Positions 3,665-32,423 of a stretch of 50,601 nt of DNA are shown one piece after another; position 1 is the first letter of the stretch, and each line of letters starts with the position of its first letter. Below the pieces are notes generated by a model. That model made no database searches and was not told the origin of the DNA. It saw only the letters and a list, made by a program, of their open reading frames with translations. The position numbers were made by a program, and so were the translations under genes. Source of the stretch: a virus; IMG/VR virus record IMGVR_UViG_3300007276_000069, positions 1 through 50,601 of that record. One strand, written 5' to 3'.

Positions 3665-4486
3665 ATGAAAGTTTTGATACCTATTAGCGGCGGAATAAAT
3701 TCTACGTATGCTGTATGGCGTTGGCTTTCTCAGACAAGCCATGAAGTTATCTCTGTGTATTTTAAAGAAAGTAATTTGTCTGATGCTGATATTCAAGCAG
3801 GAGAAGACGCTGGAATTGCAATTAGAGATTGGTTGAAAGCTAATGTAAGAGATTTTACGTGGCTTTCTCCTGTATCAGTTGATCCTATTGCTGAAGAAAA
3901 ACTTCCCATTAGAAATGGAGTAACTATTGAAGCTTCTAAAGGAAGTGTTAGTTTAATATTAAATAGAAGAAATAAAATAATAACTGCAGCAAAAGATAAT
4001 AGTTGTGACGGAATAGTTAGTGGATACAGTCTTGAAAATACATCTACAGATAGAATTTGGGATGTTAGAGAGCATAGCTCAAAAGTAAGCTGGTCAGGTA
4101 AAAACTTTTATGGCGGTGCGTCAGATATAGAATTTGAGTCTCCTGACCCCTTCCCGTCAAGAACAGATACAGGAACTTTCTTAGAAAATTTATCTGGTAG
4201 ATTTGAACAGTATGAAGCACTGCCATCTGCTTTGAGAGATTTAGTGTACAAGGGAACTTTTAAAGACGATATAGATACATGTTGGCGGCGTGGCACATGG
4301 GACGCATATGAAAAGTTTAGCGGCACAGGGGCAGAGTTTGATCAGTGGATGGCTGAAAAAACTTTTGCAGGTAAGTGGCGTCCTGATGCTTTTGATGCGT
4401 CAAAAGTAGAAGGCGAGGAGTATTTTTACAGAAATAATCCTATTACGTGGTTAAAAGCATTACGAGATGGAGGATATAATTTCTAA
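3665..4486 (+). CDS. PP-loop ATP pyrophosphatase, QueC/ExsB-like (copy A)
   Basis: 273 residues. The PP-loop signature SGGINS is at residues 8-13 in MKVLIPISGGINSTYAVWRW, the N-type ATP pyrophosphatase motif of QueC, thiouridylases and asparagine synthetases; such enzymes adenylate a substrate carbonyl or carboxylate. It is a paralogue of the protein encoded at 18395-19201: both share GYSLENTSTD, DTGTF, SGR-x-EQ-x-EALP and FDQW-x-AE. The C-terminal C-x-x-C seen in copy B (CWHC) is CWRR here, so a zinc site would be incomplete. The gene is visibly more AT-rich than its neighbours and sits one base after the adhesin inside the late tail operon, an odd place for a metabolic enzyme. Substrate unknown. 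Confidence 0.75.
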   Translation: MKVLIPISGGINSTYAVWRWLSQTSHEVISVYFKESNLSDADIQAGEDAGIAIRDWLKANVRDFTWLSPVSVDPIAEEKLPIRNGVTIEASKGSVSLILNRRNKIITAAKDNSCDGIVSGYSLENTSTDRIWDVREHSSKVSWSGKNFYGGASDIEFESPDPFPSRTDTGTFLENLSGRFEQYEALPSALRDLVYKGTFKDDIDTCWRRGTWDAYEKFSGTGAEFDQWMAEKTFAGKWRPDAFDASKVEGEEYFYRNNPITWLKALRDGGYNF

Positions 4487-5006: not shown

Positions 5007-6333
5007 GTGGATACTTTTTCTGTGTGTTGTGTTTGCAGTTATGGCAGTCACCTTTAGTTCCCACGCAGAAGAGACAGAGATTGTAACGGGACAGGAGACT
5101 AGCCCTAACTACATACCAAACATGAGCGAGTTTACTAAGTCGGGTGGAACTAACACAGGCGGCGGCAGAGGGTGCACTTCAGGCAACTTCTGCACTGCAG
5201 GTACACAAGGACCGGGAGGGACATATACAAGCACTTTTGATCTAGAAGATAACATGACAATAGACCAGATCAATCGGGGCTTCGATATGGATTATGGAGT
5301 AAATGTTGAATCGCATCAAAGCAACTCGGTACTCTCTACCTGCGCTAATGGCAACGTCATGCAGAACAGTGACTGCAGAGACATATTCAATCTTACTGTT
5401 TCTCTGCTAGATGCAGACAACATAGTACATAAGTTTGAACATGAAGTTGAGTTAGACTTTACAGGCACACGGCCCTTTGCTTTTTCACAAGTCATACCAG
5501 AGAACGACTTTACAGGACTAAGGGGGGAGTTTGAGCTATTCGGCATAGATGCTGGGTTTCCAAGCGGGTTTTTCGGTCCAAGATTTGACAATCCCTTCCT
5601 CACTACGACTTTCGATCTGGTTACGATTTTAGAGACTGAAGTGCTTAATATTATTGATTTACAACAAGAGGTAGAGGTTGTTGATATACAGGAGATAGAA
5701 GTAGAACTTGAGCCTGTAGAACCAGAAGAGATAGAGCTAGCTGCTGAGATAGTGGTTGAAGAAATTGAGACTGTAGAATTGCAGATAGAAGTGCAGCAGC
5801 CTGTAGAGCCACAGGCAGCGGAAGAAATGGAAGTCGCTGTTGAAGTTGAGCAAGAGATAGAAGCGGAACTAGAAGATGTTAGTGAGCCTGAACCAGAGAG
5901 AGAAGAGGTTGTTGAGGAATCCGGCGGAGAAGCAGAAGACGCTGGAGAAGCTAATGAACCTGCACAAAATGAAGAACCTGCCGAAGAGACAGTTCAGGAA
6001 GAAGAAGCATCCGAAGAGCCAGAGCCTGAAACCAAAAAGGCCGTAGCCCAGAAAGTAAAAGAAAAAGTAGCAAAGAAGATTATGAGCAAGATGGGTGATA
6101 AGGGCAAGTATGACTCGACTAATCAGATTAGGACGTTAGCCGTAATGGGCGTGCTTGGTAACAGTCGCAGCTTCTTTGGTACACAGGCAACTCTGCAGGA
6201 CACTCCCGGTTTCTTTAGCGGGGCTAAAATACCGGATAGCTCTATCCCTACAAACAACGTGGCGCAGTATTTGATGTTTGGTGGCAGCAATCAATCGCAT
6301 TCTGAGATGGTGGACAGTCAATGGCAGAGGTAG
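4990..6333 (+). CDS. Exported protein with long acidic Glu/Val-rich region
   Basis: 447 residues from the ATG at 4990, or 444 from 4999; an earlier in-frame ATG at 4927 would put a charged stretch before the signal peptide and is less likely. MIRWILFLCVVFAVMAV followed by SSHA-EE is a clear signal peptide. The first 200 mature residues contain four cysteines. They are followed by about 130 residues dominated by Glu and Val with EPEE-like repeats, then a Lys-rich segment and a conserved-looking C-terminus (FFGTQATLQDTPGFF, NNVAQYLMFGGS). The acidic tract resembles flexible linkers or polycation-binding tails. No enzyme motif is seen. It overlaps both neighbours, suggesting a coupled envelope or virion set. 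Confidence 0.55.
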   Translation: MSPMIRWILFLCVVFAVMAVTFSSHAEETEIVTGQETSPNYIPNMSEFTKSGGTNTGGGRGCTSGNFCTAGTQGPGGTYTSTFDLEDNMTIDQINRGFDMDYGVNVESHQSNSVLSTCANGNVMQNSDCRDIFNLTVSLLDADNIVHKFEHEVELDFTGTRPFAFSQVIPENDFTGLRGEFELFGIDAGFPSGFFGPRFDNPFLTTTFDLVTILETEVLNIIDLQQEVEVVDIQEIEVELEPVEPEEIELAAEIVVEEIETVELQIEVQQPVEPQAAEEMEVAVEVEQEIEAELEDVSEPEPEREEVVEESGGEAEDAGEANEPAQNEEPAEETVQEEEASEEPEPETKKAVAQKVKEKVAKKIMSKMGDKGKYDSTNQIRTLAVMGVLGNSRSFFGTQATLQDTPGFFSGAKIPDSSIPTNNVAQYLMFGGSNQSHSEMVDSQWQR

Positions 6334-18394: not shown

Positions 18395-19201
18395 TCATTT
18401 CATGCAAAATGTGGTTGGGGCTTTTGGGCCTGATACCACTATTTCTGTATGTTGTACTTTGTGGGTCTGCGTTTGGACGCCACTTACCGCAAATATTCTT
18501 TCGGCTAACCACTGGTCGAACTCATAGCCTGACATTCCGCTAGTTTCATAGGCTTCCATAACAGCACAATGCCAGCACTCGGATGTGGGATGGGGCAGAG
18601 GAGTCGCTTGCTTACCAGCAGGGCCAGAACAGGTTACAACTAAAGATCGTAACTCTTCAGGAAGTGCCTCAAGTTGCTCCCACCTACCTGATATTGTTTC
18701 TATAAAAGTTCCTGTATCTTCAGGCTCTGGAAAAGCCCACTCTTTAGGTATTTCAAGTTCTCTTATTACAGTTGATCCCCAGTAAACTTTCTTACCTGTT
18801 CTCTCTAGTATACTTTTTATAGCCCAGTAGCAATCCGTGCTAGTGTTCTCTAAGCTATATCCATAGACTATGGCATCACAGTTCTCTTTAACAAGAACGT
18901 CAGCCATGTTTTCAAATCTATCTATCAAGTTTCCATAGTTAGTTAAATGCCTAAAGCCTTTACGTATTGGTCTGTAGTCATAGTAAGTCTGTCTGCTTAT
19001 GGGTGGGAGCAAAGTGAAAGAACGAGTGTTTTTTTCTAGCCACTCTTTAACTCGCATTACAGCAAGCTCCTCTACAGAGTAGAGTTCGTATCCATACTCT
19101 TTAAAAAATATAGATACTATTTCATGGTCGCTTTCTTTAAGCCATCTCCATAGAGCATATGTAGAGTTTACACCACCAGACATGGGAATGAGAACTTTCA
19201 T
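18395..19201 (-). CDS. PP-loop ATP pyrophosphatase, QueC/ExsB-like (copy B)
   Basis: 268 residues from ATG 19201, which overlaps the upstream stop as ATGA; an in-frame ATG at 19234 would add a non-conserved extension. The PP-loop SGGVNS is at residues 8-13 of MKVLIPMSGGVNSTYALWRW. The C-terminal third has CWHC, like the zinc-binding cysteines of QueC-type enzymes. It is a clear paralogue of the protein at 3665-4486 (shared GYSLENTSTD, DTGTF, EALP, FDQW-x-AE). Being in the DNA-metabolism operon next to a nuclease-like gene, it could modify a nucleobase or a protein side chain. No partner genes of the full 7-deazaguanine pathway were seen. Confidence 0.75.
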   Translation of the reverse strand: MKVLIPMSGGVNSTYALWRWLKESDHEIVSIFFKEYGYELYSVEELAVMRVKEWLEKNTRSFTLLPPISRQTYYDYRPIRKGFRHLTNYGNLIDRFENMADVLVKENCDAIVYGYSLENTSTDCYWAIKSILERTGKKVYWGSTVIRELEIPKEWAFPEPEDTGTFIETISGRWEQLEALPEELRSLVVTCSGPAGKQATPLPHPTSECWHCAVMEAYETSGMSGYEFDQWLAERIFAVSGVQTQTHKVQHTEIVVSGPKAPTTFCMK

Positions 19202-19671
19202 GGGCCTAGCTCTTCTATTGGCAGGTTGTAACAATCAGCACGAAATACAAAACCATTGCTGGGGTCATAGTCGCCTCTCTTATGTTCTGTGGCTTTTAGA
19301 AAGAAATCATTCTTCTTTATAACACCTAAGAACCAGCCTACGGATAGATCGTATTTCACTCGTACAAAAGCATAGGCATCACACTTTTGTGATGTATTAA
19401 ACTTAGCTACAGAACAGGAATAGTAAGGTAGGGGGGGAGAGGATGTTCTCTTAGTCTTTACATCTACTTTTGTACCGTCATCAAGAACAACATCGTAATC
19501 AAAGGTGTTATCTGGCTTGCCACCCAGAACGCTTACGACTAGCATCTCCCCCAGATATCCAGATTGAGAACCACCGCTTCGCATGATCGAGTTGTTTAGC
19601 TCTCCAAGCATGAAAGCTTTACGATCAGCCGCCTGTCGCATGTCCTCAGTTATCTGGATTTCTTTTATCAT
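19198..19671 (-). CDS. PD-(D/E)XK nuclease-like protein
   Basis: 157 residues, ATG sharing a base with the stop of the next upstream gene (TAATG). A core of GYLGEMLVVSVLG, then FDYDVVLDDG and KVDVKTKRT fits the Glu ... Asp ... (D/E)-x-K arrangement of restriction-like nucleases, with Asp-Val-Lys as the last motif. The N-terminal part before it is helical. Proteins of this type are common in marine phage genomes; whether it cuts or only binds DNA is not shown. It is coupled by ATGA to the PP-loop gene downstream. Confidence 0.55.
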   Translation of the reverse strand: MIKEIQITEDMRQAADRKAFMLGELNNSIMRSGGSQSGYLGEMLVVSVLGGKPDNTFDYDVVLDDGTKVDVKTKRTSSPPLPYYSCSVAKFNTSQKCDAYAFVRVKYDLSVGWFLGVIKKNDFFLKATEHKRGDYDPSNGFVFRADCYNLPIEELGP

Positions 19672-30398: not shown

Positions 30399-31514
30399 AT
30401 GTACAGCTTTGTATACATTGATGATGCTTTTCGTAAGCTGATGGATATACATGTGGGTGAACACTCTAAGATTGATAGAGAGTGGAAGACTGATTATGTT
30501 CTGGCTAGGACTAGAGAAGAAGCCTTTATGGAGTATAACAGGACACCTGCTAGAACAACGTGTATTAATGATTCTCTAGGAAAACGCAGTTTCATATGGC
30601 CTATGGATAATATGTCAAAGTATTTTGGTGATATTGATTACAGGTACTATGATGAAATAGATAGGTATGACTTTAGTGATTTAATGCTGATGCGAGCGCA
30701 GGAGTTTGCTAGAAAGAATAAGCAGATTGATTTCTACTACTCCGGTGGTTTAGATAGTGTAGCCATGCTAGTTGCTTTTAGAGAAGTCCCTATCAGGCAC
30801 CAATTACACATAATAATGGGTGGCAGTGACCCTCTCAGTCTAGGACCGGACAATCTGAAAGATTACATTTTATCGGGTAATCATACGATAGACAGTACAG
30901 GTAATTTATATGGTATGGCTGACCCCTCTAAAAATATAGTTACTACAGGAATAGAGGCCGACCCTCTTTTTGGTTCTGTCGGTAATCCTATACTAATGAA
31001 AAATATTAAAAGAGATAAAACAGATTTGTTTGGCTATAAGTTCGCCTTAGATGCCGAGCCGGACTTGCATCTTTTGGTTAACGAAGATTGGAACTACGAT
31101 TTCTGGTGGCACAACCAGAGATACTTTAGCAGAATGAGATCATTCCGTATTATAAAAAACTTCTCTGGTGAGAAGATGGATTTGTCAAACTACTGCCCGT
31201 TCTACATGGGGGACAACATATTTAAGTGGTGTATAAACCAGCACTACAACAAACAAATAAAGTGGTATCACGGCAACCCAAAATTCCACAAGAGTAACTT
31301 CCTTGCATCAAAACCTATGCTAAGACAATTTGTCGGAGATTTTTGTGACAGGGATTGGGCTTACAACATTGGTAAGACTAGAACAGAGTGGTCTAAGGAT
31401 AATTTAGTTAGTCAAACAAATAGAGTTCTTGCTGTAACTGCTGACGGAACTGTTGTCACTAGAGATAATGTCGGAGATTATCTCAATAACTTTGAAAAGA
31501 TAGTTCAACTATGA
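30399..31514 (+). CDS. PP-loop protein, asparagine-synthase-like (third PP-loop)
   Basis: 371 residues. YSGGLDSVAM at about residues 114-123 is the PP-loop signature, the form used by asparagine synthetase and argininosuccinate synthase families. About 100 residues precede it and contain no obvious glutaminase domain with an N-terminal catalytic Cys. The rest is rich in Trp, Tyr and Asn with no motif I recognise. It is unlike the two QueC-like paralogues outside the PP-loop. It probably adenylates a carboxyl or carbonyl group of a small molecule, peptide or nucleobase. The stop overlaps the next small gene (ATGA). AT-rich relative to its neighbours. Confidence 0.65.
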   Translation: MYSFVYIDDAFRKLMDIHVGEHSKIDREWKTDYVLARTREEAFMEYNRTPARTTCINDSLGKRSFIWPMDNMSKYFGDIDYRYYDEIDRYDFSDLMLMRAQEFARKNKQIDFYYSGGLDSVAMLVAFREVPIRHQLHIIMGGSDPLSLGPDNLKDYILSGNHTIDSTGNLYGMADPSKNIVTTGIEADPLFGSVGNPILMKNIKRDKTDLFGYKFALDAEPDLHLLVNEDWNYDFWWHNQRYFSRMRSFRIIKNFSGEKMDLSNYCPFYMGDNIFKWCINQHYNKQIKWYHGNPKFHKSNFLASKPMLRQFVGDFCDRDWAYNIGKTRTEWSKDNLVSQTNRVLAVTADGTVVTRDNVGDYLNNFEKIVQL

Positions 31515-31712: not shown

Positions 31713-31742
31713 TTGACGGACGCTAGACGGATATGCTAGGGG
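31713..31742 (+). promoter_or_regulatory. Candidate promoter ahead of the tRNA-like RNA
   Basis: TTGACG (31713-31718) followed after 18 bases by TAGGGG, which is preceded by TGC. In the alphaproteobacterial form it reads TTGACGG-N15-GCTA. The -10 is poor by E. coli standards. The start would be near 31749, six bases before the folded RNA begins, which is what makes it worth noting. Confidence 0.4.
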
Positions 31743-31754
31743 TCAATTCTTCAA

Positions 31755-31865
31755 GAGGGGCAAGGCTAGGCGAATGCTGTATAACTTGAATAAGGCATGG
31801 CATAGGATTGCGAAAGCAAACGTTTCAAGTGTGCCAAGCAGAAGGTTCGATTCCTTCTCCCCTCA
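31755..31865 (+). ncRNA. tRNA-like structured RNA of about 111 bases
   Basis: A perfect T-arm is present: GAAGG (31841-31845), loop TTCGATT, CCTTC (31853-31857). It is followed by CCCCTC (31859-31864) that pairs with GAGGGG at 31755-31760, an acceptor-like stem, and a discriminator A. A D-arm-like GGC/GCT with a GG-containing loop follows the 5' strand. Where the anticodon arm should be there is a 7-bp stem ACTTGAA (31784-31790) with TTCAAGT (31824-31830), enclosing a hairpin TTGC-GAAA-GCAA (31808-31819) with a GNRA loop. No normal anticodon loop can be drawn. It may be a degenerate tRNA, an intron-bearing tRNA, or a dedicated tRNA mimic. Confidence 0.5.
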
Positions 31866-31889
31866 CCTTATTTACATGGAGAACCAACA

Positions 31890-32423
31890 ATGAATATATT
31901 CTATCTAGATAAAAACCCCAAGATTGCAGCGCAAATGCACTGTGACAAGCATGTAGTCAAAATGGTGCTGGAGTATGCACAAATCCTATCCACCGCACAT
32001 AGAGTAATTGACGGTGATGAAGTTGCTGACCGTGAGGGCTTGTACAAGATAGCTCACAAGAACCACCCCTCTACTGCATGGGCAAGGCTAGGCCGTGGCA
32101 ATTACAATTGGTTGTCGGACCTATGGGGATATCTTGGTATTGAGTACACGCACCGCTACAACAAAGTACACAAGGCTGCTACGAAAGAATGGTTGTTCTA
32201 CGCGCCTGACAACATACCACACAGAACAGTCTTTACAGGATTAACTTCAGCACCACCGCAATGTATGCCTGACCACTACAAATGTAATCCTAACTCTGCG
32301 TCGTTAGACGATGCAATCTCTGCGTACAAGGCGTACTACATTGGTGATAAGGCATACTTTGCTAAGTGGACTAATCGTCCTGTACCAGATTGGTTTACCG
32401 AAACTGTGAAAGAGGTAGCATAA
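31890..32423 (+). CDS. Conserved phage protein of unknown function
   Basis: 177 residues with GGAG eight bases before the ATG. Opens with MNIFYLDKNP, then HCDKHVVKMVLEYAQ and LSTAHRV, and ends with YYIGDKAYFAKWTNRPVPDW. I know this family as widespread in marine phages, including cyanophages, without a settled function. Several conserved His/Asp/Cys residues (HCDKHV) look like a metal or catalytic site. The closing KWT-x-RPVPDW segment faintly recalls the end of phage pyrimidine-dimer glycosylases, a weak similarity. Confidence 0.7.
   Translation: MNIFYLDKNPKIAAQMHCDKHVVKMVLEYAQILSTAHRVIDGDEVADREGLYKIAHKNHPSTAWARLGRGNYNWLSDLWGYLGIEYTHRYNKVHKAATKEWLFYAPDNIPHRTVFTGLTSAPPQCMPDHYKCNPNSASLDDAISAYKAYYIGDKAYFAKWTNRPVPDWFTETVKEVA

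Follow-up and report, generated by a model that had tools for sequence, protein, structure and literature searches.

The window analysed here, a 50,601-nucleotide stretch of DNA from a marine bacterial virus (IMG/VR record IMGVR_UViG_3300007276_000069), carries on one strand a promoter-like site, a tRNA-like element and a downstream gene that is no more than a neighbour of the element (Table 1). The acceptor-like stem, T-arm, D-like region, 7-bp stem and GNRA hairpin all lie, base for base, where the original prediction had placed them. The T-arm, described there as GAAGG-TTCGATT-CCTTC at 31841-31857, is present but its stem is longer, as A31840 pairs with T31858 to give 6 bp. The 7-bp stem (termed S1) and the GNRA hairpin, said to replace the anticodon, are likewise both present; however, the prediction overlooked an arm that abuts the T-arm. 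The 3' strand of S1 sits in the loop of this arm, so that arm and S1 together form a pseudoknot.

The acceptor/T helix comprises 6 + 6 = 12 bp, compared to 7 + 5 in canonical tRNA, both in the window and in a divergent homologue termed L049, between which it covaries, and the T-loop fits the TTCRANY consensus. At the 3' end of the RNA, CCA is only partly encoded (A-C-C-T). The D-like region carries GGCGAATGC, a D-loop motif like that of class II tRNAs and present too in phage tRNA-Tyr genes. Its stem is weak in every copy outside the variant L088, including the window, the variant L087 and L049, and an alternative helix in the D/anticodon region (ATGCT/GGCAT; TGCCC/GGGCA in L049) competes with the D-arm fold. 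Both S1 helices, that of the window type and that of L049, keep U-G-A opposite U-C-A at the same place. A 14-mer in the 5' part of the RNA (GGGCAAGGCTAGGC, 31757-31770) recurs in the downstream gene at 32081-32094, probably by chance.

The promoter-like TTGACG...TAGGGG of the original prediction is present, and its pattern is kept in relatives: TTGAC-N17/18-TGNTARG precedes the same leader or gene in related contigs, with or without the RNA. The site was nevertheless not scored in a sigma-70 consensus scan. Transcription from it would start near 31749-31752.

Table 1. Features of the locus (window positions) and tRNA-like RNAs of enterobacterial phages (positions within the named loci).
Feature	Position	Strand	Description
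Promoter-like site	31713-31742	+	TTGACG (31713-31718), 18-nt spacer, TAGGGG (31737-31742); directly upstream of the RNA
Whole tRNA-like RNA	31755-31867	+	113 nt including discriminator A and CC
Acceptor-like stem	31755-31760 / 31859-31864	+	6 bp, GAGGGG / CCCCTC; read directly
D-like region	31764-31778	+	GGC-TAGGCGAAT-GCT; stem only 2-3 bp, weakly supported
S1	31784-31790 / 31824-31830	+	7 bp, ACTTGAA / TTCAAGT; 5' strand at the anticodon-region position
Arm abutting the T-arm	31795-31803 / 31831-31839	+	GC, A·A mismatch, TGGCAT / GTGCCA, A, GC
GNRA hairpin	31808-31819	+	TTGC-GAAA-GCAA, inside the arm
T-arm	31840-31858	+	6-bp stem AGAAGG / CCTTCT, loop TTCGATT
Acceptor 3' strand and discriminator-like base	31859-31865	+	CCCCTC and A31865; read directly
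Downstream gene	31890-32423	+	PHROG 624 'DNA binding protein', weak Pyr_excise resemblance
Enterobacterial tRNA-like RNA	L232:501-629; L270:604-731; L271:534-673; L272:531-667; L273:542-681; L274:530-656		

Searches for known RNAs bore out the view that the element is neither a tRNA nor a tmRNA. ARAGORN called no tRNA gene in it at the default threshold, with or without introns allowed, and the Rfam tRNA model left it unmatched even at E ≤ 10. ARAGORN -m called no tmRNA, and the Rfam tmRNA models matched the T-arm only, at 8.7 bits against a cut-off of 84. No known family was matched at the Rfam gathering threshold; Rfam at gathering and relaxed thresholds, together with blastn against cultured phages, returned only T-arm or ordinary tRNA matches. 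The fold contains no anticodon arm (5-bp stem, 7-nt loop), and removal of any internal segment yielded only two anticodon stems, mostly of G-U pairs. Standard tRNA and RNA-family searches miss this gene, which phage annotation consequently overlooks.

Folding of the single sequence was only mildly better than that of shuffles (z -1.86; 9/200), so the case for an RNA depends on relatives, which were collected by a protein scan from the next gene and by pattern scans of IMG/VR contigs. Copies identical to the window are present in three contigs (L082-L084), and three further variants occupy the same locus, namely L085, L088 (the same as L006) and L087 (the same as L089), giving four variants in total. 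The pseudoknotted structure is kept in all four (31/31 pairs, alignment A1), with three pairs compensatory. The T-stem shows a compensatory change from AA/TT to GG/CC among the relatives, and in the GNRA hairpin one pair is compensatory and a second survives one-sided changes. Three segments, GCGAATGCTGTATAACTTGAATAAGGCATGGCATAGG, GCGAAAGC and CGTTTCAAGTGTGCCAAGCAG, together 66 nt, are invariant across the four variants, whereas third codon positions of the neighbouring genes are only 70-80% identical between the window and L088. This difference in sequence conservation points to selection on the 66-nt core.

A descriptor scan for acceptor plus T-arm revealed a 98-nt element in the 51.7-kb phage contig L049, where it lies on the other strand near a tRNA cluster, beside real tRNA-Met and tRNA-Leu genes. 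It scores 41.7 bits (E=1.4e-7) with a covariance model built solely from the four window-type sequences, with which ordinary tRNAs reach at most ~22 bits; the window RNA scores 144.9 bits with the covariance model R1. The Rfam tRNA model does not find the L049 element, though it finds the neighbouring real tRNAs. Compared to the window type, L049 keeps GCGAATGC, TAA after S1 and AGC before the T-arm; in its acceptor, T-stem, S1 and arm the sequence is new but pairing is retained. When the window type is compared with L049 over acceptor, S1, hairpin and T-stem, every cell (100%) is paired and 12 of the 23 pairs are compensatory, values that rest largely on this one divergent copy with its alignment fitted to the S1 structure. 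None of 500 shuffles matched either value, and slid controls gave at most two compensatory pairs. Three of the six acceptor pairs are compensatory, as are four of the seven S1 pairs, all of which are kept. The L049 arm follows the same plan (GC-A-ACGG...CCGT-A-GC), and the GNRA hairpin is absent. Dinucleotide shuffles produced the arm and a 7-bp pseudoknot jointly in 2/20,000 cases for L049 and 56/20,000 for the window. The ends of the window RNA pair as the 6-bp acceptor-like stem. In L049 a longer outer stem extends the acceptor, and the element sits inside a long outer inverted repeat.

The window type and L049 can thus be grouped by sequence comparison into a new RNA family, at present five distinct sequences in two groups, with a predicted plan of a 6+6 acceptor/T helix, a 7-bp S1 and a GC-A-S2 arm abutting the T-arm. 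Covariation and core conservation accordingly support the original claim of a dedicated tRNA-like RNA with an elaborated structure for the anticodon, and indicate that the element is a real, undescribed RNA with a structure kept in related viruses as the sequence changes. The L049 element (locus on the minus strand, 5705-5930) also lies within an insertion of ~170 nt, defined relative to the four close relatives L053, L056, L076 and L078 and flanked by direct repeats AAAATGTTGRA.

The element is not carried by every relative. The promoter-like TTGAC-N17/18-TGNTARG runs straight into a gene without the element in L005 and L010-L023. Only the 3' end of the element is left in L007 and L008 and only the 5' half in L009; L012, L019 and L020 show clean absence, and in the latter two the leader TTATTTACATGGAG stands alone. 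Because close relatives (L005, L007-L009, L012, L019, L020) have lost or truncated it, the element is dispensable and accessory. The 31890 gene in turn occurs with the same leader but no RNA in relatives. What follows the element varies: in the window it is the 31890 gene, in L085, L087 and L088 a small 'MSVPETEG' ORF, and in L049 an unrelated ORF. A role in trans is favoured, since the first downstream gene differs between the window and L085/L087/L088, and L049 has its copy on the other strand near a tRNA cluster.

We put at about one half the probability that the element is a dedicated, accessory, trans-acting phage RNA, a tRNA mimic that occupies a factor which handles or attacks tRNA. The compared sequences establish the predicted architecture of a 12-bp acceptor/T helix, a T-loop of canonical form, a D region like that of class II tRNAs and a pseudoknot for the anticodon arm. 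An RNA of this architecture cannot decode, as it has no anticodon. The acceptor/T parts that are left intact are those recognised by RNase P, EF-Tu, the CCA-adding enzyme, enzymes that modify the T-loop and some that attack tRNA, which argues for a mimic that occupies such a factor. The RNA would be transcribed from its own promoter-like site, cut at its 5' end by RNase P, and trimmed and possibly CCA-tailed at its 3' end as a tRNA is. The mature RNA would then tie up, in trans, a host factor that reads the elbow of tRNA together with its acceptor/T helix. The mimic proposed in the original prediction survives, and its most likely role would be that of a decoy or competitive inhibitor of a host enzyme that handles or attacks tRNA. 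A decoy would point to such a factor of the host as one that has to be occupied by marine phages. It is improbable that the family represents a new class of tRNA mimic, one whose anticodon strand would always be base-paired to a codon-like strand of the RNA's own long arm; such an RNA would imitate a codon-bound tRNA and let phages tie up the ribosome, RNase P or a defence enzyme that senses tRNA.

Several other explanations were weighed against the mimic. With the promoter-like site on one side, the next gene's ribosome-binding site on the other and a position at the predicted 5' end of the transcript, the element might be a cis-acting leader, a structured 5' UTR by which the downstream mRNA is controlled or protected, perhaps through cleavage by RNase P or as a translational switch. 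This is possible but doubtful: the next gene differs among the window, L085/L087/L088 and L049, and the leader also exists without the RNA (L019/L020), so that the differing downstream genes and genomic placement disfavour a leader bound to one gene. No terminator was predicted at the element. Alternatively, a class II tRNA (Tyr/Ser-like) that has lost its anticodon arm might be on its way out. The GGC..GGCGAATGC D region, shared with phage tRNA-Tyr genes, makes descent from a class II tRNA likely, and the truncated and deleted copies and the weak D-stem in the window, L087 and L049 would also fit decay. Against it speak the 66-nt core, which does not vary, and the compensatory changes found in four helices, two of them foreign to any tRNA. 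Descent from a tRNA is plausible and decay is not, and we regard a decaying tRNA as unlikely.

The two remaining proposals of the original prediction, an intron-bearing tRNA and an attachment-site remnant, found no support. With introns allowed and the threshold relaxed to 80%, ARAGORN does propose intron-bearing tRNAs in 5/5 sequences, but these calls contradict each other across the family (Leu-CAA, SeC-TCA and Leu-TAA, with introns of 25, 39 and 5 nt), nothing is called at the default threshold, and the sole anticodon stem with T33 is mostly G-U pairs; a functional tRNA whose anticodon loop, or a position close to it, is interrupted by a small intron is very unlikely. Although the 3' 27 bases resemble a tRNA end (T-arm plus acceptor), an integration remnant of a host tRNA 3' end is extremely unlikely, given that the 5' acceptor strand is present, the T-stem varies in a compensatory manner between relatives, and neither tyrosine nor serine integrases (PF00589, Phage_integrase; PF00239, Resolvase) were found in the window and eight related records, some possibly fragments, with positive controls. 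The combination of acceptor, T-arm and pseudoknot recalls the tRNA-like domain of tmRNA, and Y-RNA-like YrlA RNAs are known tRNA mimics. Rhodococcus phage Trina, where a tRNA-like element neighbours a Ro gene, prompted a Y-RNA reading, and GGCGAATG resembles a Ro-binding motif; the same GGCGAATG is, however, an ordinary D-loop motif in phage tRNA-Tyr. That reading failed, as no TROVE/Ro60 gene (PF05731) was found in the window or the element-carrying relatives, with Trina as positive control. Since the tmRNA searches gave only the sub-threshold T-arm match, a minimal tmRNA-like or Y-RNA-like RNA is highly doubtful. An HDV-like ribozyme topology was also dropped, as no P4 or J4/2 segment was seen by eye.

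Among known systems, class II tRNAs (Tyr/Ser/Leu) share with the element the 12-bp acceptor/T helix, the TTCRANY T-loop, the D-loop GGCGAATGC and a long arm before the T-arm. They differ in the 7+5 division of the helix and in possessing a 5-bp anticodon stem with a 7-nt loop; in the element, the strand at the anticodon position pairs into the loop of the long arm instead, and neither ARAGORN nor Rfam calls it. The tRNA-like domain of tmRNA similarly has a T-arm and acceptor, a weak or absent D-stem and a pseudoknot, whereas the element, at ~113 nt, has no tag reading frame and no tmRNA match. YrlA, a bacterial Y RNA, is a noncoding tRNA mimic that has D-, T- and acceptor-like arms, is acted on by tRNA-modifying enzymes and partners Ro60 (PMC8394870, PMC7790460). 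The element is likewise a putative tRNA-mimicking noncoding RNA with such parts; however, it has no nearby Ro60/TROVE gene, and its paired ends in the window look more like an acceptor stem than a Ro-binding one. The Bacillus cereus pseudo-tRNA tRNA-Other is a non-decoding tRNA-like element with another role (PMC3399842). It differs in being one part of a larger regulatory RNA, located at a genomic island, and the abstract describes no pseudoknot (PMC3399842). Allo-tRNAs and allo-tRNA-like pseudogenes, some unusable in translation, also depart from the 7/5 split of the 12-bp acceptor/T branch (PMC7609411). Theirs is 8/4 or 9/3 with anticodons, compared to 6/6 without an anticodon arm in the element. 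In plant viral tRNA-like structures, viral RNA mimics tRNA, often by means of a pseudoknot. Those structures are 3' ends of RNA genomes, whereas the element is a gene in a DNA phage. Viral tRNA mimicry has been reviewed (PMC5723415), and the element adds to it a DNA-phage case in which a pseudoknot takes the place of the anticodon arm and the acceptor/T helix, though divided 6+6, is still 12 bp long.

The terminase of the source phage is 52-56% identical to those of Roseobacter phages CRP-1, CRP-2, CRP-9, CRP-13, CRP-207 and CRP-345 and Pelagibacter phages HTVC115P and HTVC033P, which we take to be the HMO-2011-type group. Five of these cultured phages (HTVC115P, CRP-13, HTVC033P, CRP-345 and CRP-1) have no copy of the element. 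Broad-pattern scans of viral sequences returned mostly real tRNA-Tyr, tRNA-Ser and tRNA-Arg genes or chance matches, and one match from the genome-contig scan fell inside a coding region and was rejected as chance. Three window ORFs (30399-31514, 3665-4486 and 18395-19234) have an SGGxxS PP-loop-like motif, and two of them weakly resemble the tRNA thiolase MnmA. The ORF at 30399-31514 has no family match, and no tie was found that would mark this upstream ORF as a tRNA-modification gene.

Other tRNA-like elements were encountered in phages. Vibrio phages 1.238.A, 1.238.B and 1.245.O carry an unannotated one (L229:1444-1529) with an acceptor and T-arm nearly equal to those of L049 and a different, possibly pseudoknotted middle. 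The elements of Vibrio phage 1.238.A and Escherichia phage Jgk1 are not counted as homologues, scoring ~22 bits with R1, no better than ordinary tRNAs. ARAGORN also missed tRNA-like stretches at L246:1331-1438, L143:8763-8863 and L117 (minus strand, 1967-2056), one of which has a tRNA-Leu-like D-arm and no anticodon arm and another an anticodon stem that carries a 20-nt loop. In Rhodococcus phage Trina, a 209-nt 'tRNA-OTHER' pseudogene (L233:421-629) immediately precedes the Ro60/TROVE gene; this pseudogene may contain a phage Y RNA whose ends are tRNA-like. A separate unannotated tRNA-like RNA is present in the cultured enterobacterial phages Jgk1, VTCCBPA_322, FKP3, Horatius, FBKp34 and Gungnir39; ARAGORN called none of its six listed loci (Table 1). 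It has a 6-bp acceptor, an encoded ACCA or GCCA, and a hairpin AGTCAGG-GTTCATGG-CCTGATT with a variable loop that abuts the T-arm. A long variable arm replaces the D-arm, and its ends change in a compensatory manner by eye (ATATCA/TGATAT, ATCTC/GAGAT, GCATC/GATGC). As this family sits in cultured phages, such RNAs are testable there.
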